Of a DNA stretch of 64,000 nucleotides, positions 6,245-62,737 are shown piece after piece. Numbering within the stretch: the stretch's first letter is position 1; each line of letters begins with the position of its first letter. Under the pieces are notes generated by a model that made no database searches, was not told the origin of the DNA, and saw nothing but the letters and a program-made list of their open reading frames with translations. The position numbers and the translations under genes are program-made. The DNA is taken from assembly GCA_932294295.1 (NCBI GenBank), contig OW028573.1, positions 14,776,155 to 14,840,154 on the forward strand, given 5' to 3'. Source of the stretch: Alitta virens. Taxonomy: Eukaryota; Annelida; Polychaeta; Phyllodocida; Nereididae.

Positions 6245-7391
6245 GTATATTATATATATAGATTTTATTGACATGTAAAATATCATAAATGATACATATG
6301 TCATTCAGTTAAAAGATAACATGAAAGAGACATTAATGTAAGTACAGAAAGCAATAAAATTTCAATAATCAAGGTTCCAGCCACCAAGTTAACTTATAAT
6401 ACGTGTTTAAAATCCACATACACAATAGAAAAAAATACAAGCCGCTAATAAAAACATTTCACTCTCAAAGTCCAAAACATGACAAGCACATCATAACTAA
6501 TAAACTAATAAACTAAATTAATAACTGTGTGGATACAGGAGATGGTTTTCTCTACACATCGGCTTGAAGGAGAAACTTTCCTAAACTAATTAATAACTCA
6601 GGTTCCTTGTTTGTCATTATTGCTGTAAACTTAGTTATATCATCTAGAGACAAGAAGTTGTTAATAAATTTAGTTGCATTCAAAAAAAGGTTAACACGGT
6701 GTTGCTCATTACCAGGACAGACAATCAAACAGTGAATTTCGTCTTCTACAAAGTTTAACGTACACTTTTCACATATTCTATTTGGAGCAGGAATTATTGG
6801 TTTATGGTGTCGACCTGTTTCAATCTTCAGGCTATGTGAACTTGTCCTAAATCTAGCTATTTTAGTTAACACTTTGCGAATTTGTTGCAATTCAAGATAA
6901 GGTTCTATTCTACAATCAGTTTTAAATAGTTTATATGTCCTAAGTTTTGGTTGTTGTGAACTGTCATTTATTGCATTTATAAGTCGCTCATGTTCGGCTT
7001 CATAGAGTCTTAGTTTCACTGTGTTAGAGATATTATCAATGTCAAAGTTTCTGAGGTTACTAATATCATATTCAATGTTGCAGTTATTTAATACATGACA
7101 CACTTTACTGAACCAGTTATTTCCATTTACTGCATTCACATAAATTTCCTTCTGAAAATTTAAACATTTCTTAAGTAAACTGTCATCAGGTGCTCTTTCC
7201 AATCTTATCCAGTAATTCACCATTCTAATTTTCTGTCTGACATGCAATGGGAATCTACCTGTTTCACCATAGACTGCTAAAGATGGTGTTTGTTTTCTAA
7301 CTCCTAATATGTTTTTAAGATATGCAAGTTGTATATTGTACCTTCCAGTTCTCCCACATACAATGGAGTTCTGATTACACTGACTGAACAT
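6245..7391 (-). mobile_element. LINE 3' end, reverse transcriptase C-terminus with zinc knuckle
   Basis: The minus-strand frame 6552-7391 (279 codons, uninterrupted) contains ILGVRKQTPSLAVYGETGRFP, followed by a charged region and then ICEKCTLNFVEDEIHCLIVC. This is the C-terminal tail of CR1/L2/jockey-like RT ORFs, including a zf-RVT-type Cys-x2-Cys...His-x3-Cys knuckle. The polymerase core itself is absent, so the copy is 5'-truncated near 7390. The 3' UTR runs to a TA-rich tail near 6250. The long clean frame suggests a fairly recent insertion, or that a related full-length copy exists elsewhere. Confidence 0.75.
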
Positions 7392-18083: not shown

Positions 18084-20695
18084 TTAAGCTTGGTAATGTC
18101 TCAAAGTTCTTGCAGAAGGATCGGAAGCCCCCTTGATCCAACGGGGCATCCAGAAATAACTGATCCAGTCTGATTTCCCAGGATAAAATTTCTCAAAAAG
18201 CTGCCGATACATGTAAGCCTCCTTTGTAGTAGGGGGGTTGAAGGGGAATCTCTTTGGAGCATCAGCCAGTAACTCGTCATTGACCTTCAAATAAGTAAAA
18301 ATACTAAATAATTGTTACTACAGATAACTCTAAAAGTTACATGCCACATTAAAATTGTAGATCTTAGACTTCACAATATTGCTGGAGATACAGTGTAGTT
18401 TTGATCAATTATTCAGTGTTGCACAGTCATGAGACTAGGTAAGAGAAGAGCAACCTTGACTCACCATCTTAGCAGCATGGTCCTGAAGAAGTTCAAACCA
18501 TGAGGACGTTTTTGAGGAGACACCATCACTAAATGCTTCTTTATGTCGCCAAAGAATTTCATCAGGAATTAAACCTTGACCATCAAAAGCTTTCCTGATC
18601 ATATATTTCTCAATCCCATCTTTTGGTTGTCTGACCTCCTCTGGTAGACCAAGGTAATATGCTGTGAAGGGTTGGTCAAGGAATGGCACCCTCAGTTCAA
18701 GTCTTCGGGAAAAAAAAAACTTAAAATGTAACTACACCAAGCTAAATTGGTAATTCATATACAATTTAAACTGCCACACAGAAAATGTAGAATTACCCGT
18801 GAGCAGCAGTTGTCCTGTCAGCTCTGAGGGCATCGAACATGTAGAGATCGTTGAGCAATCTGCGACTCTCCTCATCACCATCTTTGGCAGTTGGTGCCTT
18901 GTGAAAATAAATGTATCCCTGAGCAACCTCATCAGCTCCCTCCCCTGAGAATATCACCACACTGTCTGACTTCTCGCTGATGTACTTGCTGGTCAGGTAC
19001 ATTCCTGTAAAACAGTAAAGAGTGAAAGCTTTATATAATCAATCATTTCACAGAAAAATTTAAATCAGAATTTGAACAGTATATGAAATATATTCCTAGG
19101 AGACCTACCAACAGAAGCTCTGATGGTTGTAATGTCATAAGTTTCAAGGTGGTAAATGAGACGCTCAAGAATCTCAAATCCTTCCATGGGTGTAAAAGAT
19201 ATTTCATGATGCTCTGATCCAATATGTGATGCAACCTAACAATATAATTCAAGAATAAAATTGATGAGTCGTCCTAACAACAGGTTTGGAGTGATATTGC
19301 TATCCACTTTGCATGACAAGGCTAATTTGTACCTTTCTTGCAGCTTCAATATCTGGACTGCCCTCCATGCCGATGGAGAATGTTTGGATGGGGTAAGTCA
19401 GACCTTCCTCTTCCGCACACTCCACAATAAGAGCAGCTATGAGACTGGAATCCAGACCTCCAGATAACATACATCCAATCCTTCTGTGAGATAACATCCT
19501 CTTTTTGACTGCTGCCTTCAAATGGTCCCTGATACTGGCAAATATGTCACCTTCTGGACAAATCAAGAAGAAAAAAAAAAGAATGTGAAACATTATGGAT
19601 GTACTGAGTCATACATGCCGATATATTTGGCAGGATGTTAGCAATTTATCAGATTTGCAGACCTGTGTTAGTTCTTACCTGTAGGAACTGCTCTAACTGT
19701 AACAAAGTCAGGAACATCTCCTATACATCGATATTGCACACGTTTAACCAAAGAGACCTTTCCATGGGCGTTCATGTCATACTCTTCATAGTGGCCTGGA
19801 GGAAATGGCTCTATTTTACTTTGGCCTTTCATTGTTACTTCCACAAGTCCTACAAAAGACATCACAACCATTCAGAAACGAGCCAAATAGATGTTTAAAA
19901 TGAGCAAAAAGACTCACTGCATATATTGCAAATTAAATGCAGCAAACAAACTACCTTTAGCCTCTGAGGAGAATGCAAGAACACCATCATCAGTGACCAC
20001 TCTGAAGAGTGGCCTGACCCCATACAGGTCTCTTGCAAGGTATATCTTTCTTCTTTCCGTGTCCAGAAGACACAGAGCAAATACTCCATCCAGTTGCCTG
20101 ACCATGAAGTCAATGCCTCCCTTGTTGTACAAGTGCATAATGGCTTCTCCATCACTCTTAGTTTCGTAATGAAAATCATAAGCCTTGCCCACCTGATGAT
20201 AAATAAGAAAGCACAATCTAAAATCATATTCTGCTAAACGTACTACATAATGTAATTTCAAATGACAATCAATGATACTTCTTACTCAATTTAGCAGATT
20301 GTGACCTCACAACATTGTCTATATTTTGCGATATATTATATTTTTTACTTTATTTAATTGTTGGACATTGGAGAAGAAATAATTTTTGCCTCCAACATAG
20401 ATTCTAAGATGTCTTCATACACAGCACATGATGTCTTACCATGGGTGCATTGTAGATCTCCCCATTGTAGCAGAGCGTGAGGTGGTCCATGGAAATAAGA
20501 CGCAGAGGCTGCATTCCGTGAAGGTCATCCATGATGGCCAACCGGTGGAATCCCATCACACAATTCTGGAAGTGATTCACGCTCTCCACTCGGAATTGGT
20601 CAGGACCCCGGTGAGCAATCTGAAGACATGCCTTCACCTCCGCCCACACCTGATTATTCTCATCACCACCAAAGATCGCCCAGATTCCACACATC
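18084..20695 (-). CDS. ASNS: Asparagine synthetase (glutamine-hydrolysing), copy A
   Basis: Makes asparagine from aspartate, ATP and glutamine in the cytosol. Coding exons (minus strand, 5' to 3'): 20695-20440, 20192-19955, 19849-19679, 19553-19333, 19235-19109, 19004-18797, 18702-18465 and 18284-18084. All have GT-AG borders and phases join cleanly, giving 552 aa (human is about 561). The N-terminal amidotransferase domain starts MCGIWAIF with the nucleophile Cys2, the RGPD loop at 29-32 and NGEIYN near 80. The synthetase domain has the PP-loop SGGLDSS at 252-258 and the ATP-site SGEGADE. The ATG lies one base after an acceptor (cttgcag), so a noncoding first exon must exist upstream; it was not located. 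No defect is visible. Tandem paralogue of copy B. Confidence 0.97.
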
Positions 20696-22102
20696 CTGCA
20701 AGATTTATTAGTATCAGCATCAAAGGGTACAAATTTTCTTGAATAGTCATGAACCATGCAATTTCTCAGATTATTCATTATAATATGTAAGATAGCAGTA
20801 ACAAGTGACGATAACTTCTAATTTCAAGCTTGAAAGTATGTTGAACTGGCAAACACTGTCTAGACGGAAAACATTAATTATGGAATCGGGAAGCATTAAC
20901 TGTCATTACCTCATTTATATTATTTATTGATATCTACCAGTTTTCCAGCATGCATAAACTTGTGTGCATGTGATTCAGTTCACCTAAGTACTGTGTATAT
21001 ATTTCTGATTATTTCATAATTATAACTTGTGAGATTTGAAATCAACATTTTTCAGGGACAACAGAAAACATTAAAAGCCAAAAAAGGTGAGACTTGGCAG
21101 TGAGAGACCCTTTTTGTAATAATGACAACTTTCTTAATTACATCATTCTTGGAAAACAGACCAACTTGGCTAGATCTTAATAATTAATACAGGCCTCATT
21201 ATGAGGTCATTTGAGGCTCTTACGCCACTGTGATGCACTATTGGATGAACTAGAGAAGGATTAGACCCTTTGAAAGTAGTAAAACAATATTCATTATTAG
21301 GTGATTTGAAGAGTCAAATTCGCCCAGAGCTGGCCCAAAGACCCCTACATCTTTTTATAAACACTACTCTTAGTAAATTCCGCAGGATCCAAGGATTCTA
21401 AAGGTATTTTTCACCGAATTTCTAGGCCTAATATTAAGAAAGTTATGGTAAAAAATGTGTCAGTTTTGAAGTATTATTTTGTTAAATATCTTATCTTGAT
21501 CTTACAATAACTGAAGCATCTGTAATGAGCCATTATAGATAAGACAATATCCATCTTAAAGCTGAAAACCTTGTCTTCAAGATGATTTTTATGTCAATGT
21601 TAATGACTATTGTTATCTATGTCGTAATGAGATATAGACCTTTAATGATGCCTAATTTTCTGTGGATGTGCCTACTCTAACTGTTCGGCCACTCTGCCTC
21701 TCTTGTTAGCTGGTTCAGTAAAAATTTGATTAGCCATGAATTTTTTAAGAATGCAGTAAAATATCCGATAGATAAGTGCAGCCTTTTAACGCACATTCTT
21801 GCCATTCACAGTGGACTGATGAGGTGGGGGAGAGGAGGTTGAGTCCAATGCCCATCCATATTTTGTATTTATATTTACCCCTTTGGTGGGCTTTTTTACT
21901 TGCTTCAGCAGAGACACCAAGTACAAGACACCTCCAATTTAATGTTCCATCCAAATGACAGCTGGTATGATGATCCTATCCTATCTACTTTTTATTTATG
22001 ACCCTCACTCATGCCCTTTTATCCATCCTGAGGTTCCAACTGTTTTTTGTTGTTGTTTTTTTTTTGTCACGGAGTTGCGCTGTTTTGTTAAGGTGCTTCA
22101 AG
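20696..22102. other. Upstream flank or first intron of synthetase copy A
   Basis: No coding sequence is supported. A SINE fragment lies at 21775-21965, in the same orientation as the one at 16610 and sharing gcagcc, the gatgagg block, the tgcttcagca block and the ccaatttaa block. The missing 5' untranslated exon of copy A could lie here or beyond the transposon block. A weak donor-like CAG/GTAGGC on the minus strand near 26650 is one candidate. Confidence 0.4.
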
Positions 22103-23568: not shown

Positions 23569-23580
23569 AGACTAATTAAT

Positions 23581-24108
23581 AGTCTTAATAAAAAACCATG
23601 CGATAAACCCATTGCATGGCAAACCGTGGCCTTTAAAGAAATATACATGGAGAACGTTAAATTAATTTACCAACCGTACTCCATAGAGACAACTTTAAAG
23701 TCCCTTAACTGGAAAGGAATATGGAGTAGGTGGGCACTTAGACCTTTCAGTAATAAATACAAGGTCCAAATGCATATAGTGATTACTGACCATTTTAACA
23801 AAATAAAGTATTTTAATAAATCACAAAACTGTCCCTTATGTGACTTCGCCTTCGTACAGTCACGTGATCATTCCTTTATAAACTGCTTGGGGATACAACC
23901 ACTCCATAGACATATACGCCAGCAGTGGGGACTAAATTTAGAACCCCACAAACTATTCTACGAAGAATACCCTGATGACAAGTATAGAATAGCCCTAAGC
24001 TACATACATACCATAATGAAATTAACAAAAGCATGGAAGGGGAAATGGGGTACACCCAATAGAGATACCATCTTTCAATACTTCAACAAAACTCTATCCA
24101 AATTATAG
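23581..24108 (+). CDS. Reverse transcriptase C-terminal tail (5'-truncated)
   Basis: About 175 codons belong to the LINE; the frame continues upstream only by chance into flanking DNA. It contains KIKYFNKSQNCPLCDFAFVQ followed by SRDHSFINC. This is a Cys-x2-Cys...His-x3-Cys knuckle like the zf-RVT domain at the end of CR1/L2/Rex-type reverse transcriptases. A C-terminal helical region follows and ends at TAG (24106-24108). The polymerase and endonuclease domains are missing because the copy is 5'-truncated. Clade assignment would need the full-length parent. Confidence 0.7.
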   Translation, partial: SLNKKPCDKPIAWQTVAFKEIYMENVKLIYQPYSIETTLKSLNWKGIWSRWALRPFSNKYKVQMHIVITDHFNKIKYFNKSQNCPLCDFAFVQSRDHSFINCLGIQPLHRHIRQQWGLNLEPHKLFYEEYPDDKYRIALSYIHTIMKLTKAWKGKWGTPNRDTIFQYFNKTLSKL

Positions 24109-24158
24109 TAATGTACCCCAAAGGTACCGTTTGAGTTGGTTTGAGTGAACATAATAAA

Positions 24159-25487
24159 ATGTACTCAAAATACAACAATTCCCATATTTTTGACCATTTC
24201 TCAGGCTACCATCTAACAAATCTTGGTAAGGGCCCCCAATATCTACATAAGAACAGGGCAAGTAGGACCTCTGTTTCCAAATGGAGAAATAGCACGACAG
24301 TAAGTAATCCAACACTGGCAAAATTGAACAAAATGTTTAATGGTTTAAACATTTGGATAGAAGGTGACTCCATGGTCAGACACCTGCCAGTTTCGGGATC
24401 CACTTCAATCGCCACCTCTGGCTTGAAAATAGAGGAATTGGCTAAAAGATACAGTCATGATCCTGAGGCAACAGAAGAAGAAGATCGAACACCAGACGCC
24501 ATAGTAATACTAATAGGTACCAACAATGTCGGAAAAAACACCGCCGACATTAGGTTCCATCTAGAAACCTTGTGTATAGGTATGCGAAGGCATTATCCGT
24601 ACACTTACATCGTAATCCTTGGCATTAGGATAAGACCACAGGATACTGGGTGGGACCTATCCAAACAGAACTCCAAGACAGAATCGAGAGACCTCATAAA
24701 TATGGAGCTAAAGAAGGCAGCACAAAGGCACCCTGGTTTTCTTTTTAAGAACCCTTATAAGGTTGAGACTTACAACACAGGGGAAGGAAGAAAATTAGTG
24801 GAGGATGCCTTCCTGCAAGATGGCCTCCACCTGTCAAACAGCGGAAAGGAGAGGATGGCAATTGGCATAATTAACATTGTCTACAGAGACTTAAGAGATT
24901 CTATCACATACATGACCAATTTCAGGGTAAGTACTAGAATAATTAACTTGCCACCCAATCTAAACTACATACCAGCACTAAGAGTAAAAAATAGAATAAT
25001 CTATTTCAAAGGAGAAAACAGTATCGTCTCCAACTTTACCCAAACTAATCTGTCAATTTTTGGAAAGATTTTCACAACTTCAGAGTCTGCATATCAATAT
25101 GCAAAGGCAGCTCACAGCGGCGACATAACTATGTGCAGAGAGATCCAGAGGGAAAGAACCGGAAGAGGGGCCAAATCAGCGTCACGAAGAATATGCACTA
25201 CCAACCAACAACATTGGCATTCCATCAAAAGGGACATCATGAAGTATATCCTCATGTCTAAAATGGACCAAGACGCGCCCTTCCGTTTCTTCCTTCTGGA
25301 GAACAAAGTACATAGTTTGTCGGAAGACACCTTAGATGAATTCTGGGCTGTAGGCAAGAAAGGTAGAGGACAAAACGAACTAGGACAAATCCTGATGGAA
25401 TTGAGAGTTCTCTGGGATAATCAAGACAAATACAAAGAAGTAAGAGAAGACATCAAAAGAAAGATTCCAGATTTTCCTTGGAAGTAA
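24159..25487 (+). CDS. SGNH hydrolase - NADAR domain fusion, LINE-encoded
   Basis: Intact frame of 442 codons from ATG 24159 (the frame itself is open from 24141). Residues 65-235 form an SGNH/GDSL hydrolase: IEGDSMVRHL with Ser71, GTNN at 120-123, and DGLHLS with Asp221 and His224, the usual Ser-Asn-Asp-His set. Residues about 278-420 match NADAR (YbiA/DUF1768): IIYFKGE...SNF, SESAYQYAKA, GAKSASR, EFWAVGKKGRGQNELG and ILMELR. SGNH esterases are known from ORF1 of CR1/L2-type LINEs. NADAR enzymes act on N-glycosidic bonds of ADP-ribose-like compounds, including guanine ADP-ribosylation. Here the fusion lies 3' of the reverse transcriptase and begins 50 bp after its stop, which is unusual. Its role in the element is inferred, not shown. 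Confidence 0.85.
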   Translation: MYSKYNNSHIFDHFSGYHLTNLGKGPQYLHKNRASRTSVSKWRNSTTVSNPTLAKLNKMFNGLNIWIEGDSMVRHLPVSGSTSIATSGLKIEELAKRYSHDPEATEEEDRTPDAIVILIGTNNVGKNTADIRFHLETLCIGMRRHYPYTYIVILGIRIRPQDTGWDLSKQNSKTESRDLINMELKKAAQRHPGFLFKNPYKVETYNTGEGRKLVEDAFLQDGLHLSNSGKERMAIGIINIVYRDLRDSITYMTNFRVSTRIINLPPNLNYIPALRVKNRIIYFKGENSIVSNFTQTNLSIFGKIFTTSESAYQYAKAAHSGDITMCREIQRERTGRGAKSASRRICTTNQQHWHSIKRDIMKYILMSKMDQDAPFRFFLLENKVHSLSEDTLDEFWAVGKKGRGQNELGQILMELRVLWDNQDKYKEVREDIKRKIPDFPWK

Positions 25488-25518
25488 CAATTATCCATAA
25501 AGAGTCCGGACGGGTAAT

Positions 25519-25672
25519 AAGATGTACCCAAAGGTACCCAAGTATACAGAGTAATCATAATAAAATGTACTCTGAGGTAAATAAAATAATAAAAGGTTTT
25601 TGTCGAGTGAACATACTAAAATGCACTCTGGACATGGTAAAAAGAGTAATCATAATAAAATGTGCTCTGCTA
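25519..25672 (+). repeat. Repeated ATG-containing leader motif
   Basis: The intercistronic sequence at 24110-24172 (tgtaccccaaaggtacc, then gtgaacataataaaatgtac) recurs at 25519-25575. Its second half, GTRAWCATAMTAAAATGYRC, recurs twice more near 25607 and 25650. Each copy carries an ATG in the same position. Confidence 0.75.
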
Positions 25673-25891
25673 AAAGTAAGTTATACATACAAAAGATATG
25701 ACATCACGAAAATATCTTCTACATACAATTATGATAATATTAAAGGTAACCAACTAAATGAGCAAATACCAAAAACCTTGGGTGATTCTTACATACTTAT
25801 AAATCGCACTATCATAAATTTAAATAGATGCACTATCACAAATTTAGAAGATGCACAACAAAACACCCAAGGGGCGATGAAGAAGCTATAG
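25565..25891 (+). CDS. Small third ORF of the LINE, unknown
   Basis: The frame is open from 25478, overlapping the end of the SGNH-NADAR ORF. The first ATG after the repeated leader motif is 25565, giving 108 codons. The peptide around the start (HNKMYSEVNK) echoes the start of the preceding ORF (HNKMYSKYNN), because a leader segment of about 60 bp is duplicated. The product is basic, Ile/Lys/Asn rich and not recognised. It may be just 3' UTR. Confidence 0.3.
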   Translation: MYSEVNKIIKGFCRVNILKCTLDMVKRVIIIKCALLKVSYTYKRYDITKISSTYNYDNIKGNQLNEQIPKTLGDSYILINRTIINLNRCTITNLEDAQQNTQGAMKKL

Positions 25892-26403
25892 AGTAAGTAC
25901 TTAGAGCAACTGCCCTAGTGTCCAGCCTCGAATGGGTTGAGACTTTCCTCACCCGACTGATGGGGGACACAAAAAGGGCAGAAGAGTTGGGAAGCAAAGA
26001 TCCTGTGAAATAAGGAAAACCAACAATGAAGCTCCTATCGAATAATGGGAAAACTCTAATCTGAGCCAAAAAAAAAAAAAAAAAAGACTAATTAATGCAG
26101 GATATTACTGAATACTGAATAGCGAGGATATGTTTCTGTGGACCAAAGCTAACATCAGAGGTAAAGTGCTGAAGGTGTTAGTTATTAATATTACAAATTA
26201 CTCATTGCAATCAAGGATCGCATGAACTTAGGACATAAGTGACGTCACCAGATTGCGTGGCGGGTGGCGCAAATTGTACTTTAAATTGTCTTAAAACCAT
26301 ACCAAACCCGACTTTAAGACATTTCCTTACACAGCGATATACTCTTTTACATGTTATTAAACTTTAAAAAACAACATACAAATGTCCTTTAGTACCCCTT
26401 TAA

Positions 26404-32227: not shown

Positions 32228-33061
32228 AAGAGTTGTATTGTGATGATGGCGATGGATCCTGCTGCGATGATAGTATCAGCGTCTGGCATGTCACTCCAAT
32301 TGGTGAAACTCCAGGCTGAGTTGTCGGACATGTCACTCCAATTGGTGAAACTCCAGGCTGAGTTGTCGGACATGTCACTCCAATTGGTGAAACTCCAGGC
32401 TGAGTTGTCGGACATGTCACTCCAATTGGTGAAACTCCAGGCTGAGTTGTCGACCATGTCACTTCAATTGGTGAAACTCCAGGCTGAGTTGTCGGACATG
32501 TCACTCCAATTGGTGAAACTCCAGGCTGAGTTGGTGGACATGTCACTCCAATTGGTGAAACTCCAGGCTGAGTTGTCGACCATGTCACTTCAATTGGTGA
32601 AACTCCAGGCTGAGTTGTCGGACATGTCACTCCAATTGGTGAAACTCCAGGCTGAGTTGTCGACCATGTCACTTCAATTGGTGAAACTCCAGGCTGAGTT
32701 GTCGGACATGTCACTCCAATTGGTGAAACTCCAGGCTGAGTTGTCGGACATGTCACTCCAATTGGTGAAACTCCAGGCTGAGTTGTCGACCATGTCACTT
32801 CAATTGGTGAAACTCCAGGCTGAGTTGTCGGACATGTCACTTCAATTGGTGAAACTCCAGGCTGAGTTGTCGGACATGTCACTCCAATTGGTGAAACTCC
32901 AGGCTGAGTTGTCGGACATGTCACTCCAATTGGTGAAACTCCAGGCTGAGTTGTCGGACATGTCACTCCAATTGGTGAAACTCCAGGCTGAGTTGTCGGA
33001 CATGTCACTCCAATTGGTGAAACTCCAGGCTGAGTTGTCGGACATGTCACTCCAATTCTAA
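32204..33061 (+). CDS. ORF over the minisatellite, predicted continuous coiled coil
   Basis: An ATG-initiated 285-codon frame: a 28-residue leader, then about 18 copies of MSLQLVKLQAELSD. In this 14-residue repeat the hydrophobic residues fall at positions 1, 5, 8 and 12, an exact 4-3-4-3 heptad pattern, so the product would be a long coiled coil. The most common variant changes only D to T plus one silent base in this frame. In one minus frame the same changes replace G, C and P residues. Nothing shows that it is expressed; an overlapping minus ORF (32028-33155) is equally long. Confidence 0.2.
   Translation: MVQLAIIHKSCIVMMAMDPAAMIVSASGMSLQLVKLQAELSDMSLQLVKLQAELSDMSLQLVKLQAELSDMSLQLVKLQAELSTMSLQLVKLQAELSDMSLQLVKLQAELVDMSLQLVKLQAELSTMSLQLVKLQAELSDMSLQLVKLQAELSTMSLQLVKLQAELSDMSLQLVKLQAELSDMSLQLVKLQAELSTMSLQLVKLQAELSDMSLQLVKLQAELSDMSLQLVKLQAELSDMSLQLVKLQAELSDMSLQLVKLQAELSDMSLQLVKLQAELSDMSLQF
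32289..33057. repeat. 42-bp minisatellite, 18 units plus 13 bp
   Basis: Units of exactly 42 bp (starting TGTCACTCCAATTGG) run without any indel. Two unit types interdigitate: GGACATGTCACTCC and GACCATGTCACTTC (three linked changes); one unit has TTGGTGGAC. Because 42 is a multiple of three, every stop-free frame stays open across the array. The plus frame is MSLQLVKLQAELSD; the minus frames are GVTCPTTQPGVSPI and MSDNSAWSFTNWSD. Confidence 0.97.
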
Positions 33062-35718: not shown

Positions 35719-36629
35719 TTAGGTGCTATGATGGAGGGGGTTCGGCCCTGAGGCGAGTTTGGAGGCTAAGGTGGCTAATTGGGCATCGGCGGGGCGTATA
35801 TAAGCTAAATACGCCCTAGAACGCCATCTGCCCATACGCTGCACCTCTGCCTCCGAAACTGAGAGATTCGCAGCATCAGTCGCTGCACCTGCCCTGAGAG
35901 AGTGAGGAGTGATATGATCAGTGGTATGACCGATTCTGGCAAAAGTAGTTTCATATTGCGAGATAATACCGCATGCGTCAGCGGGACTCCATTCTGAAAG
36001 AAAAATAATGGTAATGTAGGATCCGGGACCCTGTAAGAGAAGTAAACCTTCATCCAGCAGTAAGCACATATCGGATCACCAGAGCAGCCGATTACGGCCG
36101 AAAAACCTTTTACCGACGTTTTTGAAGATGGGACCGATAAGACCATGTACGGATTGTACGCTGAAATAAATTTAACATGCTTAGGCTTAAGCGGGGTAGG
36201 CCAATATCATTGCTGTGAACAGCATGACATTGTCGTAATATAGATGCAGCGAGTTATATAGCTGACGTAACATGATAGTGATACTGGAGTGACCTGAGAT
36301 GGGGCCGGATGCTGCCTCTCTAGAGACCTCAGTGCCCACTTAACTCTTGGGGTGTATAGATTGGGGGGGGGGGGGGGGTCGCCTCCAAAGGAAATGATCC
36401 ATAGTAGTACGGCCATGAAGACTTTAACTGTGCGGACCAGTATCGCACGTGCATCGAGGTATGCTATAAATCTAATAATGTTGGATTCGTGAATGATAAA
36501 AGGGTTTAGTTGATAGCATGCACAAAATTGAATATAACTATTCACTCCTGTCGTGTAGGCCTTGCGGGAGTTGAATGCTAAGCCATTGGATACCAGCTGG
36601 ACTGCATGACGATCCAATTCTGAAATCAA
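35719..36629 (-). pseudogene. Tyrosine recombinase of the Ngaro-like element
   Basis: The N-terminal SAM-like segment (36629 downwards) reads NGLAFNSRKAYTTGVNSYIQ and continues into RVKWALRSLERQHPAPSQVT. The C-terminal catalytic part (36069-35719) contains HSLRAGAATDAANLSVSEAE followed by RMGRWRSRAYLAYIRP, which supplies the Arg, the His/Trp position and the Tyr nucleophile of the phage-integrase fold. The pieces lie in different frames. A G tract at 36363-36379 is one obvious slippage site, so the gene is broken. Confidence 0.75.
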
Positions 36630-54547: not shown

Positions 54548-54931
54548 ATGCCTGTGAAGTTGCGTAGGAGACCTGGCTTGGTCACAGCCGAGACGAGTGA
54601 ACCCGCATCGACTCCGGTGCCGGGCCCCTCGCAAACGGCGGATGAGTCAGTTCTACGTGCTTCGGCTAGGAGTAAAGTAGTGCGAACGCTGGGACGCCCT
54701 CGGAGACGAGAGGCCCCGGCGGATAGGACCCCAAGTCCTGGACGCCTGTTTCCTCGCCTGAAGGGCGGCCCCACGTCGTCGAGCGTGCGGAACCACGTGG
54801 CTCGGCCCGGGCTGTCATGGCGGCTGATAGTACTCTGGAAAGGAGTATGGGCTCCTCGAGGTACAGGCGGAGAAAGGAAGCAATTCCTCCTAAATATGAC
54901 GGCCAGGGTACGGCCTTCATCGATCATTTAG
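54548..54931 (+). CDS. Upstream ORF overlapping the gag start
   Basis: The ATG at 54548 opens 128 codons of a basic, Pro/Arg/Ser-rich sequence (MPVKLRRRPGLVTAETSEPA). It overlaps the first 115 bp of gag in another frame. It may be a gag N-terminal extension separated by an indel or reached by -1 shifting, a genuine small leader protein, or chance openness in GC-rich DNA. Confidence 0.3.
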   Translation: MPVKLRRRPGLVTAETSEPASTPVPGPSQTADESVLRASARSKVVRTLGRPRRREAPADRTPSPGRLFPRLKGGPTSSSVRNHVARPGLSWRLIVLWKGVWAPRGTGGERKQFLLNMTARVRPSSII

Positions 54932-55833
54932 ACGAGTTTACTCAAGTCGCCACCTTCAATAAGTGGACAGACGAGGAAAGGTGCTTTCATCTTTGGACCA
55001 GCGTCACTGGTCAAGCAAAGCTGAAAATGAGGCCCTTAACTTATCGGGACGATTGGAGAGAGATGGTGAGCCAGTTGACGGCCCTGTTCTGCTCAAATCG
55101 TGCCCTGGATGCATATAGAAATAAATGGTTTAATGCGAAACGGGGCCCAGAGATGGACCTCGAGACGTATGGGTTGTTCTTGTTGGATTTATCCAGGAAA
55201 GCGAATCCCGCTTCCACCCCCACCGAGCAGGAACGCTTTGCAAAAGAGCGCTTCATGGAAACGGCTGGGTCTACGAGTATGCGATTTTGGTTGGCGGCGT
55301 TAAAGCCACCTACACTGCAAGAAGCCATTGATCTGGCGGTGCAGTATGAAGCAGCGTACGAGGCCACTAAAACGAGCAAGCCTGAAGTCGGGCCGGCTGG
55401 CGCTGTCGCCTTGCCTATAATACAGCCCGAGGCTTCGTTGGCTGCTACTGCTTCAACCTCTACACGTGTTGGCCCGCCTTCTGAAAAAGAGGGAGCCATC
55501 AAGAGACAGGATCTAAAGGATCTAGTTTATTCTATCATGGGCGAGGTTATGGCTAAGGAGTCTAAGGGAAAGGTCTACAGCAACGCTCGCCGACAAGAGC
55601 AGGATTATTCCCCTGAATCACGGAGATGCTACCGGTGCAAAAAGACCGGACATCTCCGCAGGAACTGCCCTAGGCGTCAAGCCGATGATGATCGCTCTAC
55701 AAGGAGGGCGTCCAGCAAGGACAGGGAGCACCGGTCAGACAAATACGGTGATAAACGGTCCAAAGGGCGTAGCGATCGGGGTAAAAAGGGGGGCAAGGAT
55801 AAAAGGGAGAGGAAGCAGTCAGAAAACGAGTGA
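54817..55833 (+). CDS. gag: gag polyprotein
   Basis: 338 codons with a good start context (gtcATGg). Residues about 20-190 resemble Retrotrans_gag (WTDEERCFHLWTSVTGQAKL and following). A single CCHC knuckle CYRCKKTGHLRRNC is at 271-284 (C271, C274, H279, C284), then a strongly basic Arg/Lys tail for nucleic acid binding. It forms the particle and packages the RNA. The stop TGA overlaps the open pol frame by about 30 bp (-1 relative frame), so pol is probably made by frameshifting. Confidence 0.9.
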   Translation: MAADSTLERSMGSSRYRRRKEAIPPKYDGQGTAFIDHLDEFTQVATFNKWTDEERCFHLWTSVTGQAKLKMRPLTYRDDWREMVSQLTALFCSNRALDAYRNKWFNAKRGPEMDLETYGLFLLDLSRKANPASTPTEQERFAKERFMETAGSTSMRFWLAALKPPTLQEAIDLAVQYEAAYEATKTSKPEVGPAGAVALPIIQPEASLAATASTSTRVGPPSEKEGAIKRQDLKDLVYSIMGEVMAKESKGKVYSNARRQEQDYSPESRRCYRCKKTGHLRRNCPRRQADDDRSTRRASSKDREHRSDKYGDKRSKGRSDRGKKGGKDKRERKQSENE

Positions 55834-58800
55834 GGGTGGAGGAAGTATCCGTCCCGGATCCTTCACCTGCTGAAAAAGCAGCCCCTCATCCTCCAGAATG
55901 TTGGGAAGGGGTAAAAGTGGGACAGCATTGGCCCAGACACGTGGCCATGCATAACTCGAGTGCATCCTGGTATATCACGATCAGTGTAGGGACACGTCAC
56001 GTGGATCTCCTGATCGATACTGGAGCACAGGTGTCACTGCTGAGCAAGCAGGAATATGACGAGATACCGGGTGCAAATCGAGAGAAGTTAAGACCTGTAG
56101 AAGGCAAGATTTCAGCTGCCAATGGTGGCCCTATTAATATTTATGGTAAAGTTGAGCTCACTCTCTGTTTAGAGAGAATGCTCTATCCTTGTGAATTTTT
56201 GGTAGCGGATATCGGAGGTCTCCCTGGTTTATTAGGGATGGACTTCTTGAAGAGACACGGTGCATTGTTAATGTGTTCAGTAGGAATGCTGAGACTGGGA
56301 GGCGTTGACATTGCGTGTATGGAAGGTCGCCCTGGAAAAACAGGCCGAGCAATTATACACGAAGACGTCCATATACCAGCTCGCCACGTGTCGCAGGTCT
56401 CAGTCAATTTGGTATCCTGGGGCGTATCTGACGGGGGCGACCTCGTATTCGAGTCTTTGCCCACGGTTTGCCAGGATTTACACATAATGATACCTAGAGG
56501 GCTATTGAAATCCCAATGCTCTGGGGCTCACGTGTGGATAGCCAATCCCACGACTGAGAGTGTTCATATCGCAAAAGGTCAAGTGGTAGGTAAATTGAGC
56601 GAGGTCGAAAAAGTGGATCCACCGAAAACGGTGCATGCTGCTGAGGTCAATCATGAACTCAAGCGGAAAAACACTGAAACACGACTGCCCGTTCATTTGC
56701 AGCCTCTTTTGGACGAAACTGACGATCTGACAGCAGATCAACGGTCAGAGCTCAAAAAGGTCTTGATGGAGTATGAACATTGCTTTGAGGGAGGTAAATA
56801 CAGGCTGGGACGTACGAGTCAAGCCACGCACAAGATTGACACGGGTGACAATCGGCCTTTCAAAGTGCCGGCCCAGAGATTAGGGTGGGCTCAAAGCAGG
56901 GCGCTGTCAGACGAAGTGGATAAGATGCTGAGACTCGGAGTGATCGAGCCCAGTAATAGCCCCTGGTCTAGCCCCCCTGTGTTGGTTAGAAAGAAAGATG
57001 GAACTATCAGGTTTTGTGTGGACTATAGGAAATTGAATTCGTGCACTAAAAAGGATGCTTATCCTTTGCCACGCATTGATGACTGTTTAGACACTTTATC
57101 AGGGGCCAAATGGTTTTGTACCCTGGACCTGTCGTCTGGCCATTGGCAAATAGCCATGGACGATAGAGACAAAGAGAAAACCGCATTCACTGCTCCTAGA
57201 GGGCATTTTCACTTCACAGTGATGCCCTTTGGAGTCACAAATGGACCAGCTACACTGGAACGTTTGATGGAGCTAGTGTTAGGAGGACTGGACCTGTCCA
57301 CTTGTCTATGTTACATGGATGATATAGTGGTACAGGGTTCCACATTCCAGAAGTGTCTAGGTAACCTGATAGTTGTACTGAAACGCATTAGCCAGGCTGG
57401 GTTAAGGCTAAAAGCTAGCAAATGCGAGTTATTTAAGAGTGAGGTCTCCTTTTTGGGGCATGTGGTTTGTAGAGAGGGAGTGAAACCAGATCCTAAGAAG
57501 ATAAAGGCGGTGCGAGAGTGGCCAGAACCAACTACAGTACAGGAGGTGCGCTGCTTTGTAGGATTCGCATCGTACTATAGGAAGTACGTGCGGGACTTTG
57601 CTGGACTAGCAGCACCACTACATGCTCTTACAGCGCACCAGGTCGTCTTTAAATGGGATGAGACATGCAGAAACGCTTTTAAAAGGTTAATCAGGGCCCT
57701 TACGACTGCACCAATCTTGGTGCTACCTCGTGAAGGTTGCCCTGTCATCTTGGACACGGACGCCTCTGACCTTGCGATAGGAGGTGTATTGTCGCAAATC
57801 ATTGAGGGAGAGGAGCGCGTAGTTGCCTACGCCTCGCAGTGTCTGTCTTCGTCGCAAAAGCATTATTGCACGACATACAAGGAATTGCTAGCTGTGGTCA
57901 GAATGGCGAGAATATTTCGGCCCTACTTGTATGGACAGGATTCAGTGCGTTTGCGCACTGATCATCGTGCTTTAGTGTGGTTGCAGAACTTTAAAGATGC
58001 GGAAGGAATGTTGGCGAGATGGATAGCTTCTTTGACCGAATACAACTTTGTAATCGAATACAGAGAAGGCAAGAAACACGCTAAAGCAGATGGCTGCTCA
58101 CGCATCCCAGTGAGAGCCTGTAAGCGCCAGGAATGTCCTGACCAAGGTCATGGCCAGAATGGTGACCTTGTGGCTTCCATCACGCAGCGGAACCAAGTAC
58201 GAGGTTTTCGCACGATTGCGTGTGGACAGCCTCGGCCAGTGACCACAGTCGGCTCAGGAGAAGCCGAGGAACCCCAGGTGCGAGTGTGTGTGGCAGAGGC
58301 TGGAGAAACGGCTGGAGAAACGGCTGGAGAAACGGCTGGAGAGGGAAACGATAGATCTCTGGATCCAAACTGGATAGAGTCTTTCACCTTGGAGGAAATA
58401 TGGTACGCTCAGGGCCAGGATATGGCCATAGCGACCGCCAAGAAGTGGCTAAATGCTGGACAGCGCCCGCCGTATTACGACATTGTCACGCACTCGGCCC
58501 AGGTGCGGAATATATGGGCCCAGTTCTATTGCTTGAAATTGCAGCGAGGCATCGTGTATCGAAGCCACAAGCTGCCTACAGGTGAATTAGTCAGCCAGAT
58601 GGTGGCCCCAGCAAGCATCAGACGCAGCATCTTCAACCAGCTTCATACGTCTCGTCTTGGTGGTCATATGGGGATTAACAGCCTCATATCCAAGTTGAGA
58701 TGGAGGTTCTATTGGCCTGGCTACAAGGAAGACGTGGTGCGATGGATTGGTTGGTGCGATGTATGTCAGAAGCGGAACCAGGGTGGCCTGAAAAAGGCTC

Positions 58801-59725
58801 CCCTGCATCAGGTTGGAATGCCGATGGAAAGAATGGCCATTGACATAATGGGACCATTGCCTGTCACGAAGTCCAATAACAAGTATATAGTAGTCGTGGC
58901 CGACTACTTTACTAAGTGGACAGAAGCCTTCGCTCTTCCTAATCAAGAGGCTTATACGGTGGCTGATTGCTTGGTGACCAACGTGATTTTGCGATTTGGG
59001 GCTCCCTATCACTTGCATAGTGACCAAGGGACTAATTTCGAATCGAAATGTGCAAAATCTTGGGGATTAATAAGACCAGGACCACGGCTTATCATCCCCA
59101 GAGCAATGGGCTGGTGGAACGCTTCAATAGGTCATTGGGTGATATGCTATCGAAGTTAGTAAATGACAGGAGGGATGATTGGGACGACATGCTCCCTTAC
59201 GTGATGTGTGCCTATCGGGCTACGCCCCATAGATCCACAGATATCACGCCAAATAGAATGATGTTGGGCAGGGAGGCGATGCTCCCTGTGGATCTGATGT
59301 ATGGCCACGCTCTCCAGCATAAGCACCACTGTCCAGTGGAATATGTGGAGTGGATCCGTGATGCCATGGAGGAATCCTTTGAGAAGTGCAGGTCGCAGAT
59401 GAAAAGAGCAGCACAGAAGCAAGCTAAGCATTACAACAGGTTGGTGATGGAGCAGTCATTCCATATTGGAGACTGGGTTTTGTTGTTTTATCCGCCCCTG
59501 GCCAAGCAGAAGTTAGCTTTGAAGTTTTTGGGTCCATACAAAGTCACCAGGAAGATGGGAGAGGTCAATTATGAAATTGAAGCTCCAGCGACTGGCAAGA
59601 AACGCATCGTTCACATTAATCAGCTCAAAATGTACTTAGCTGAGGTGACTCCAGACGACATGATCCGGATCCCTGATATTCCATCAGACGATCCGTATTT
59701 GGACCCATCACTGTACGAGGACTGA
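55803..59725 (+). pseudogene. pol: pol polyprotein, broken by one small deletion in integrase
   Basis: Open from 55803; numbering from 55830. The aspartic protease DTGA is at 63-66. RT has RFCVDYRKLN and catalytic YMDD at 495-498. RNase H has DTDASDLAIGG, YKELLAVV and RTDHRAL. Integrase has an HHCC finger (H939, H946, C976, C979), then the D of AIDIMGP and HSDQGTNFES. Directly after that (about 59042-59047) the frame is lost. The remainder of the core and a GPF/Y-type C-terminus (FLGPYKV) continue in another frame (59048-59725) to TGA. The frame change needs a net loss of 1 mod 3 bases, and the spacing to the conserved downstream block suggests about 10 or 13 missing bases. The rest shows no damage. 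Confidence 0.9.
58307..58350 (+). repeat. 12-bp coding tandem repeat in pol
   Basis: GGAGAAACGGCT is repeated about three and a half times, encoding GETA units in the linker between RNase H and integrase. Confidence 0.9.
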
Positions 59726-61252: not shown

Positions 61253-62737
61253 ATGTCTTCAGCAAACCAGACCATTGAGGAGGCTACTGCTGTGCCAGCA
61301 GTGCCCCTGGAAGACGAGAGACAAGGACAAGACGAGGGACCCCAGCTAACGTCAGAACAGACTGACATGGTGTGGGCTGCCATGGAGGCAGCGGGCCTCG
61401 AGGTCGGGGCCGAGCTTGAGGTCTCTGCCAGCGACGCTGAGGTGGCTGCCGTTTGCGGCTTGTCACCCACGTCTGAGGTTCAAATCTCCCTGGCCCCGGA
61501 TTATTGGAGCCAGCAGAGGTTGGGACTCCTGCACCTGGACATGTGGGCCTGCATGTCCAGGAAGGAATACGAGTCAGAGGACCCGGCGGTTAAGCAATAC
61601 GGGTCGGCTACTTTACCCGAGATGGCGAGGATGCGGCAGTATCTTCGTCTCCGCCCCCGGAGAGAAGACATGCCGATCCTCAGCGGTTGGATCATTGGAG
61701 ACCTGGGTGTTGCGACCACCCAGGAGGAAGTCATGGAAAATCTCAGGAGGCGACCTTGGTACGCCAAGGAGAGGGTGACCAGGCCAAGCGCAGAGGCCGA
61801 GGTCCCTCGTTCCGAGGCTACTAAGTCGCCTGCAAAGGACGAAAAGGCAGCTCCGCCTACGGAGGCTGCCATGGAGGAAGTTACGACAACTCCGGCCAGT
61901 GCCGAGAAACGACTGGAGAAAGGGAGTTTGGACAGTGCGGAGAGCGCGGGGGCCACAGATGACGGAGGGACGGAGAGTGACGTTTCGGCCCCAGACAGCA
62001 CCCCCAAGGTCGCCCTGCCAGTTGCACCCCGGGACGTTGAGGGGCTGAACTACATGTGCGCTACCTGCGGGAAGCGTGTGAGGGACCGCAAGTCTCTCAC
62101 TCGCCACGTGAGCGTGGCTCACGCAGTGGCGTATGTGGGCTTCCAGTGCCCTGAGTGTCCCGCTGCGCTACCATCAGACAGGAGGACGAATTTCCGGCGA
62201 CATCTGGAAAGGTCGCATGGATACACCCGCTCACGGGCCGAGGAGGTGACGGCGGCCATGGGACTGACAAAAATCCAAGGGCCCAACACAGACGGATCTC
62301 TGCCGGCAACACCAGAGACGAGGGCCCTGGTCAGCAGGGCGCCTTCCTCTCAGACCACTGCGTCCACGAGCACCAGGGTGGTGCAGATGCGTGACGCAGA
62401 GGTGGCTTCGAACGTATCTCCACGAAGTCGGTTGGCAACACCAAAGAGGCCCCACCCCACGGAGACGACCATGAGGACACCAGGAGCCGAAGATATGGTG
62501 TCCAGGGCCCAGTACCAGGACATCGTCCTGGAGGTACATAGGGCAAGGTCGCAGACGGCCGCGTCTGGACGCGAGAATGAGGAGTTGAGGGCCAAGCTTC
62601 GCGCAGAAATAGAGCAACGCGAAGCCATGGCCCGGCAATCTGACCTCCTATACCAGGAGGTCAAGCGATTGACAGCTGATCGCAATCGCTGGATGGAAGA
62701 GGCTAGGGCGGCTGGATCTTCTTCTGCAAGGCCTTGA
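61253..62737 (+). CDS. Third ORF: two C2H2 fingers plus coiled coil
   Basis: 494 codons, intact, with a favourable start (aaaggATGt). Residues 1-180 are an acidic then mixed domain with no recognised family (QISLAPDYWSQQRLGLLHLD, RQYLRLRPRREDMP). 190-260 is a low-complexity Ala/Glu/Ser linker. Finger 1 is at 269-290 (C269, C272, H285, H290) and finger 2 at 299-322 (C299, C302, H317, H322, with a longer loop). After another linker, about 420-490 is a charged coiled coil (RENEELRAKLRAEIEQREAM). It occupies the position of env, but has no signal peptide or membrane helix, so it is not an envelope protein. A nucleic-acid or chromatin-binding accessory protein is inferred. No host gene of this layout is known to me. 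Confidence 0.8.
   Translation: MSSANQTIEEATAVPAVPLEDERQGQDEGPQLTSEQTDMVWAAMEAAGLEVGAELEVSASDAEVAAVCGLSPTSEVQISLAPDYWSQQRLGLLHLDMWACMSRKEYESEDPAVKQYGSATLPEMARMRQYLRLRPRREDMPILSGWIIGDLGVATTQEEVMENLRRRPWYAKERVTRPSAEAEVPRSEATKSPAKDEKAAPPTEAAMEEVTTTPASAEKRLEKGSLDSAESAGATDDGGTESDVSAPDSTPKVALPVAPRDVEGLNYMCATCGKRVRDRKSLTRHVSVAHAVAYVGFQCPECPAALPSDRRTNFRRHLERSHGYTRSRAEEVTAAMGLTKIQGPNTDGSLPATPETRALVSRAPSSQTTASTSTRVVQMRDAEVASNVSPRSRLATPKRPHPTETTMRTPGAEDMVSRAQYQDIVLEVHRARSQTAASGRENEELRAKLRAEIEQREAMARQSDLLYQEVKRLTADRNRWMEEARAAGSSSARP

Follow-up and report, generated by a model that had tools for sequence, protein, structure and literature searches.

An SGNH-NADAR fusion encoded by the last long open reading frame of a likely truncated LINE in Alitta virens

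What does a retroposed unit in an annelid genome gain from an intact gene that fuses a hydrolase to a NADAR domain? This question is raised by one locus of Alitta virens, which we analyzed in a window of 64,000 nucleotides (nt) (contig OW028573.1, positions 14,776,155 to 14,840,154, forward strand); all coordinates below are those of the window. We found that a unit of 2,504 bases (23581-26084) has a run of A at its end and a perfect 12-bp direct repeat on both sides, and that its last long open reading frame (ORF), here called ORF3, encodes the fusion. We propose that the unit is the likely truncated 3′ end of a long interspersed nuclear element (LINE) and that ORF3 encodes an SGNH-NADAR accessory enzyme, which probably removes ADP-ribose from guanines of the element's RNA or complementary DNA (cDNA). 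We give this reading as a whole a probability of roughly 0.45.

The two domains of ORF3

The earlier note on this DNA had described an intact 442-codon ORF, and we found exactly that, opened by an ATG. The longest open run in the three plus-strand frames of the element is 450 codons; across 500 dinucleotide shuffles, no run exceeds 160.

24159..25487, plus strand: ORF3, an intact 442-residue SGNH-NADAR fusion with an ATG start and profile matches
24342..24908, plus strand: SGNH-hydrolase-like domain, about residues 62-250, with S71, G88, N122, D221, and H224
24966..25427, plus strand: NADAR domain, about residues 270-423, with E309, K316, K339, W353, E389, and W396

To place ORF3 among other proteins, we searched 5,772,631,384 of them. 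A single-sequence search found 2 further SGNH-NADAR fusions and a profile search found 4 in all, both searches reaching only relatives with short exact words in common. ORF3 and these four form a five-member family, across which the main catalytic positions of both domains are invariant. In the open-licence PubMed Central (PMC) literature, with larger result sets covered in part, we found no report of an SGNH-NADAR fusion or of such an ORF 3′ of a LINE reverse transcriptase (RT). Papers there that combine NADAR and GDSL were all off topic, as judged by title and the start of the abstract.

The NADAR profile PF08719 matches ORF3 with an E value of 2.5e-19 (70.6 bits against a cut-off of 35.1) and matches 5/5 family members at E<=0.01. 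The earlier note had named the lack of a profile match as grounds for dropping the NADAR domain; that is ruled out. Residues E309, K316, and E389 align with YbiA and are invariant in all five members. The corresponding reference residues of the P. nicotianae NADAR are the catalytic E43 and K50 and the last-strand E125, which is Glu and not Asp or His. Thus, E389 places ORF3 in the YbiA branch of NADAR and not in the DarT1-linked branch, which has Asp. The active-site conservation that had been asked of other copies was found among distant relatives, for the main catalytic residues only. From these residues we predict that the NADAR domain of ORF3 probably hydrolyzes guanine-linked ADP-ribose. 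Ribosomal protein uS15 also matched a section of the NADAR region (E about 0.01), which we took as chance.

The claimed SGNH set (S71, N122, D221, and H224) is present in full, with the oxyanion glycine G88 in addition. Lipase_GDSL_2 scores 32.2 bits against ORF3, just under the Pfam cut-off of 32.9, and is matched by 5/5 family members at E<=0.01. As in the SGNH hydrolase superfamily, Ser, Gly, Asn, and His (plus Asp) lie in conserved blocks on an SGNH fold.

Is this domain the esterase already known from LINEs? In ZfL2-1, H191 and S228 are described as conserved only in transposon esterases (PMC3905857). From the numbering of N195 and the alignment with structure 4c1b, we took H191 as Asn minus 4 and S228 as Asn plus 33. 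The H191 equivalent is L118, in a column that reads L, L, M, M, M across the five members. The S228 equivalent is L154 by the 4c1b alignment (column L, L, I, I, L on visual inspection) and residue 155 by plain counting, and neither column holds a Ser. Both residues specific to LINE ORF1 esterases of the ZfL2-1/CR1/RTEX type are thus replaced. Because the catalytic machinery is common but the lineage hallmark is absent, a separate acquisition is the simpler reading, and we conclude from the sequence that the SGNH domain was probably acquired separately from the known LINE esterases. The five-member profile matches 4c1b at E=2.4e-7 and matches 2hsj, a bacterial protein like platelet-activating factor acetylhydrolase (PAF-AH), better, at E=9.4e-9.

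We also looked for the fusion in viruses and prokaryotes. Scans of viral contigs gave no loci for A1, P0005, and P0006 and one for A2; this sole locus matches query residues 106-229 only, which belong to the SGNH part (27%). A scan of prokaryote genome contigs gave no locus. Among 419 phage records that match the query, none covers 80% of it; in the best 20 of the 419, the top seven matches span residues 153-431, and in the remaining thirteen the match begins no earlier than residue 228. Given this partial coverage, phages are not taken as the source of the fusion. Against a viral structure library, 48 matches reached E<=0.001, with NADAR proteins of giant viruses and phages on top and with yellow head virus and nido-like polyproteins included. 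Identities are 8-31%, so these matches do not settle the origin of the NADAR domain.

The retroposed unit and its hairpin repeats

The unit and the repeats that bound it comprise the following features in addition to ORF3.

23569..23580, no strand: 5′ copy of the direct repeat AGACTAATTAAT (target-site duplication), the longest string common to both compared flanks
23581..24108, plus strand: 3′ end of the upstream ORF, 5′-truncated, likely the RT C-terminus of ORF2, with the stop codon TAG at 24106-24108
23830..23886, plus strand: C-x2-C-x9-H-x4-C zinc-knuckle-like motif of the upstream ORF, read from the translation
25488..26067, plus strand: 3′ untranslated region (UTR) of the element, A-rich as in the ORFs
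26068..26085, plus strand: poly(A) run of 18 A, the final A common to the direct repeat
26085..26096, no strand: 3′ copy of the direct repeat AGACTAATTAAT, from the same flank comparison

The direct repeat occurs twice in the window. The AT skew of the plus strand is 0.20 in the upstream ORF, 0.24 in ORF3, and 0.27 in the 3′ UTR, against -0.07 and 0.02 in the flanks. This uniform A-richness favors one transcript and, together with the direct repeat and the poly(A) run, supports the claim that the locus is one retroposed unit. Target-site duplication, poly(A) tail, and 5′ truncation are all marks of a non-LTR (long terminal repeat) element, and the unit is likely, on indirect evidence, what a 5′-truncated LINE insertion has left of its 3′ end. 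We did not rely on codon usage: values for the RT fragment were 0.69 with the SGNH part, 0.54 with the NADAR part, 0.54 with a Gypsy element of the window, and 0.61 with another LINE-like ORF, while the halves of ORF3 agree at 0.40 with each other and the SGNH part gave 0.59 with Gypsy.

What remains of the upstream ORF is its final 175 codons (23581-24105); the RT core is absent from this 5′-truncated copy. The C-x2-C-x9-H-x4-C arrangement is one that we take to be typical of LINE RT (ORF2) C-termini. With this motif in a poly(A)-tailed unit that has a direct repeat, the upstream ORF is likely an RT C-terminus. One database protein, P0006 (1/13 candidates), matches it with 98% identity over 85 shared residues and extends 49 residues upstream of the truncation. 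Its further reach indicates that the window copy is 5′-truncated and that another copy or close relative exists. Among PDB sequences, the upstream ORF matched only an endoglucanase (E=0.15), which was taken as chance, and a structure model was rejected (predicted local distance difference test score, 38.5). Elsewhere in the window, a 279-residue ORF (6552-7391, minus strand) resembles the C-terminus of another LINE RT and has the same C-x2-C-x9-H-x4-C spacing; it has no Pfam match at E<=0.01.

Exactly 50 nt separate the upstream stop codon from the ATG of ORF3, the spacing given in the earlier note. We found that this interval belongs to a repeat, R, of about 60 nt, which stands on both sides of ORF3.

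24106..24166, plus strand: repeat R1, starting with the upstream stop codon and containing two hairpins as well as the start codon of ORF3
24143..24166, plus strand: hairpin motif copy 1, with an AAUAAA loop and a 2-nt bulge
25515..25572, plus strand: repeat R2, the second copy of R, 27 nt past the ORF3 stop codon
25549..25572, plus strand: hairpin motif copy 2, from motif search and fold
25605..25628, plus strand: hairpin motif copy 3, with an ACUAAA loop
25644..25667, plus strand: hairpin motif copy 4, from motif search and fold

The R1-R2 alignment scores 54, against 39 for the best of 1,000 shuffles; outside the hairpin, it scores 31 against 30 in shuffles. The 24-nt hairpin motif occurs four times in the window (<=3 mismatches), always in the element, with 0 expected, an expectation that is partly circular because the pattern was drawn from the copies themselves. 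All four copies take the same bulged fold, three with the AAUAAA loop, at modest folding z-scores (-1.8 to -2.3). In the alignment of the copies, 3/10 pairs show changes in both partners and 95% of cells are paired; the number of both-sided changes is reached by 34/500 shuffles and the pairing by 54/500. Pairing drops to 20 to 55% when partners are slid by 1-3 columns. With only four copies, this covariation is suggestive. Rfam, at gathering thresholds, matched nothing in the whole window.

The ATG of ORF3 lies inside hairpin copy 1. The upstream stop context is TAGTAATG, which includes UAAUG, and a UAAUG stop-start has reportedly been described for SART1. We take R to be an intercistronic start module that was probably duplicated when ORF3 entered the element. 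The ATG in hairpin copy 2, in R2, starts a 108-codon ORF (25565-25891, plus strand), which mirrors the opening of ORF3 at copy 1; both begin MYS. Searched as the longer frame 25478-25891, it has no credible family match; a match of that frame to LktC (E=0.03) fell under the cut-off and was taken as chance.

Proposed role and rival explanations

If the upstream ORF is the RT C-terminus, ORF3 would be a late cistron, translated by reinitiation after the RT stop codon through R1, which holds its start codon. Its protein would join the element's ribonucleoprotein (RNP), where the SGNH domain may contact membranes or lipids or hydrolyze esters, as has been suggested for the ORF1p of L2. The NADAR domain would then cut the N-glycosidic bond of ADP-ribosyl-guanine made by host ADP-ribosyltransferases, and template and product would be protected.

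This proposal draws on three published observations. NADARs hydrolyze the bond that joins ADP-ribose to the amino group of guanine (PMC11543638). Positive-strand RNA viruses of animals also have them, with a proposed role in stripping host-made ADP-ribosyl adducts (PMC9503650). SIRT6 silences L1 via ADP-ribosylation of KAP1, which is a protein and not a nucleic acid (PMC4695847). Taken together, these make an accessory ADP-ribose-removing enzyme the best reading. A counter-defense role of the NADAR domain is plausible and agrees with the published chemistry and the occurrence in positive-strand RNA viruses. The element's proteins are a less likely target of ADP-ribose removal than its nucleic acids.

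Several points weigh against this reading. We know of no host ADP-ribosylation of LINE nucleic acid. No second copy bearing ORF3 was seen within the window, no full-length element was seen, and RT and ORF3 were found together in no other copy; the placement of ORF3 3′ of RT is likely and comes from one copy. P0006 is silent on ORF3, since it ends inside the zinc-knuckle-like motif. The four fusion relatives may lie outside LINEs, because they are known here as proteins only. The LINE label of the earlier note holds as likely and indirect, and its reading of the upstream ORF as an RT C-terminus drew no Pfam match, no credible PDB sequence match, and no recognition by model. Within the NADAR domain, the ADP-ribose contact R79 of P. 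nicotianae, by spacing R343, is not kept in the family (R, R, D, D, D). NADARs outside DarT1 operons are reported to be less efficient against DarT1 (PMC11125620). This weaker action suggests that the true substrate may differ, for example, riboflavin intermediates or NAD-derived signals.

The strongest rival, which we consider unlikely, is that ORF3 is the family's ORF1 and stands 3′ here through a chimera formed by template switching at R during reverse transcription. Two copies of R flank ORF3, an arrangement expected from a homology-driven switch or duplication, only a single copy of ORF3 is seen, and NADAR is reported in ORF1 of oyster Tx1 LINEs (PMC12477816). However, the hairpin copies continue into the 3′ UTR and one holds ORF3's own start codon, the upstream ORF, ORF3, and 3′ UTR are uniformly A-rich, and other retroelements have GDSL ORF3s (PMC5408684).

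Somewhat less probable still is a structural role, in which the ORF3 protein would be an RNP-assembly partner like ORF1p and its NADAR domain would act on small NAD-derived molecules or RNA ends. The esterase ORF1p of ZfL2-1 is membrane binding with slow turnover (PMC3905857), YbiA substrates are riboflavin intermediates (PMC11543638), phage NADARs have been suggested to favor soluble ADP-ribose derivatives (PMC9503650), and the Ectocarpus authors suggest RNA processing (PMC12477816). Yet guanine-ADP-ribose is a substrate of the NADARs that have been assayed from several subfamilies (PMC11543638, PMC11125620), the family shows no variation at the main catalytic residues, and ORF3 has no Pfam RNA-binding domain at E<=1, a test that does not extend to coiled coils.

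A bolder version of the accessory-enzyme reading, to which we give little credence, makes the element a LINE with a swappable 3′ gene slot between start-codon hairpins, filled by a two-enzyme ADP-ribose eraser against host defense. NADAR would clear guanine-linked ADP-ribose and the SGNH esterase would clear ester-linked ADP-ribose or acyl-ADP-ribose, stripping host ADP-ribosylation from the element's RNA, cDNA, and proteins. Least probable of all is a single capture of a host mRNA or gene, through 3′ transduction or in the form of a processed pseudogene, with no role in the element: only one copy is seen, and animals have both NADAR genes (PMC11125620) and SGNH hydrolases such as bovine PAF-AH. 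Against it, the fusion was found in only 4 other proteins, so a host source is not evident, hairpin repeats stand on both sides of ORF3 within a single poly(A)-tailed unit that has a single direct repeat, and the reading frame and main catalytic positions are intact.

Neighboring sequences and known systems

The rest of the window holds several other features. An asparagine synthetase N-terminal exon lies at 20404-20778 (minus strand; match to PDB 6gq3, E=2.9e-27). A Gypsy-type LTR retrotransposon coding region (54817-59725, plus strand) has a gag-like ORF with a zinc knuckle followed by pol; its polyprotein (55830-59159) has protease, RT, RNase H, and integrase domains by Pfam, and by our reading the integrase seems to continue in a second ORF from 59048. 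The exon and this polyprotein mark the window as eukaryotic DNA. An ORF of 494 residues (61253-62737, plus strand) matches the C2H2 zinc-finger profile PF00096 (E=4e-6); it may encode the N-terminal portion of a site-specific non-LTR element or else a gag-like protein. A phage-integrase SAM-like fragment (36207-36629, minus strand; PF13495, E=1.2e-4, under the cut-off) possibly derives from a tyrosine-recombinase retroelement such as DIRS or Ngaro. A tandem array at 32287-33057, built of about 18 units of 42 bp (96% matches), maintains long open frames on either strand.

In bacteria, toxin-antitoxin and phage-defense systems are known to use reversible ADP-ribosylation of nucleic acids. If our reading is true, ORF3 offers a concrete, assayable case of a eukaryotic mobile element that perhaps fights or uses this modification, and the 3′ slot between hairpin repeats shows a route by which LINEs gain whole extra genes. 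Its interest lies in two domains that keep their main catalytic residues, with an esterase apparently acquired independently; its limit is the single copy.

The earlier note had called both the fusion and the 3′ position unusual. The fusion is indeed rare, with 4 other proteins, but NADAR in LINEs and GDSL ORF3s in retroelements are already published. In Crassostrea gigas, a NADAR domain is described in ORF1 of Tx1 LINEs, and in Ectocarpus in Pol of a Gypsy element (PMC12477816), a text in which the word SGNH is absent. Like the oyster Tx1, our element is a likely animal LINE that encodes a YbiA-family NADAR; unlike there, as far as the published description allows comparison, NADAR forms the C-terminal half of a 3′ ORF. 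The Ectocarpus NADAR is also borne by a retrotransposon, but by an LTR element of a brown alga and as part of Pol.

With the ORF1p of CR1, L2, and RTEX elements (ZfL2-1, 4c1b; PMC3905857), ORF3 shares the SGNH catalytic set in a LINE-encoded accessory protein. Their esterase lies in ORF1, generally after a coiled coil, whereas that of ORF3 is fused to NADAR and likely lies 3′ of RT. Bdelloid Vesta LTR retrotransposons and Athena Penelope-like elements likewise have a GDSL/SGNH protein as an extra ORF (ORF3), in the LTR families besides gag and pol (PMC5408684). They belong to other retroelement classes, and the part of that source available to us does not mention NADAR. In TRAS/Jockey LINEs, a captured enzyme, a viral superfamily 1 helicase, has also been proposed as a counter-defense, there against RNA silencing (PMC5563155). 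That helicase is fused to ORF2 (or ORF1), in TRAS at the ORF2 C-terminus, whereas ORF3 is separate. Unlike the DarT1-associated NADAR antitoxin, listed here with the P. nicotianae NADAR 8bau (PMC11543638), ORF3 has no ADP-ribosyltransferase seen alongside it. What is new here is an ORF3 flanked by hairpin repeats that fuses NADAR with an esterase without the hallmark residues of LINE esterases.
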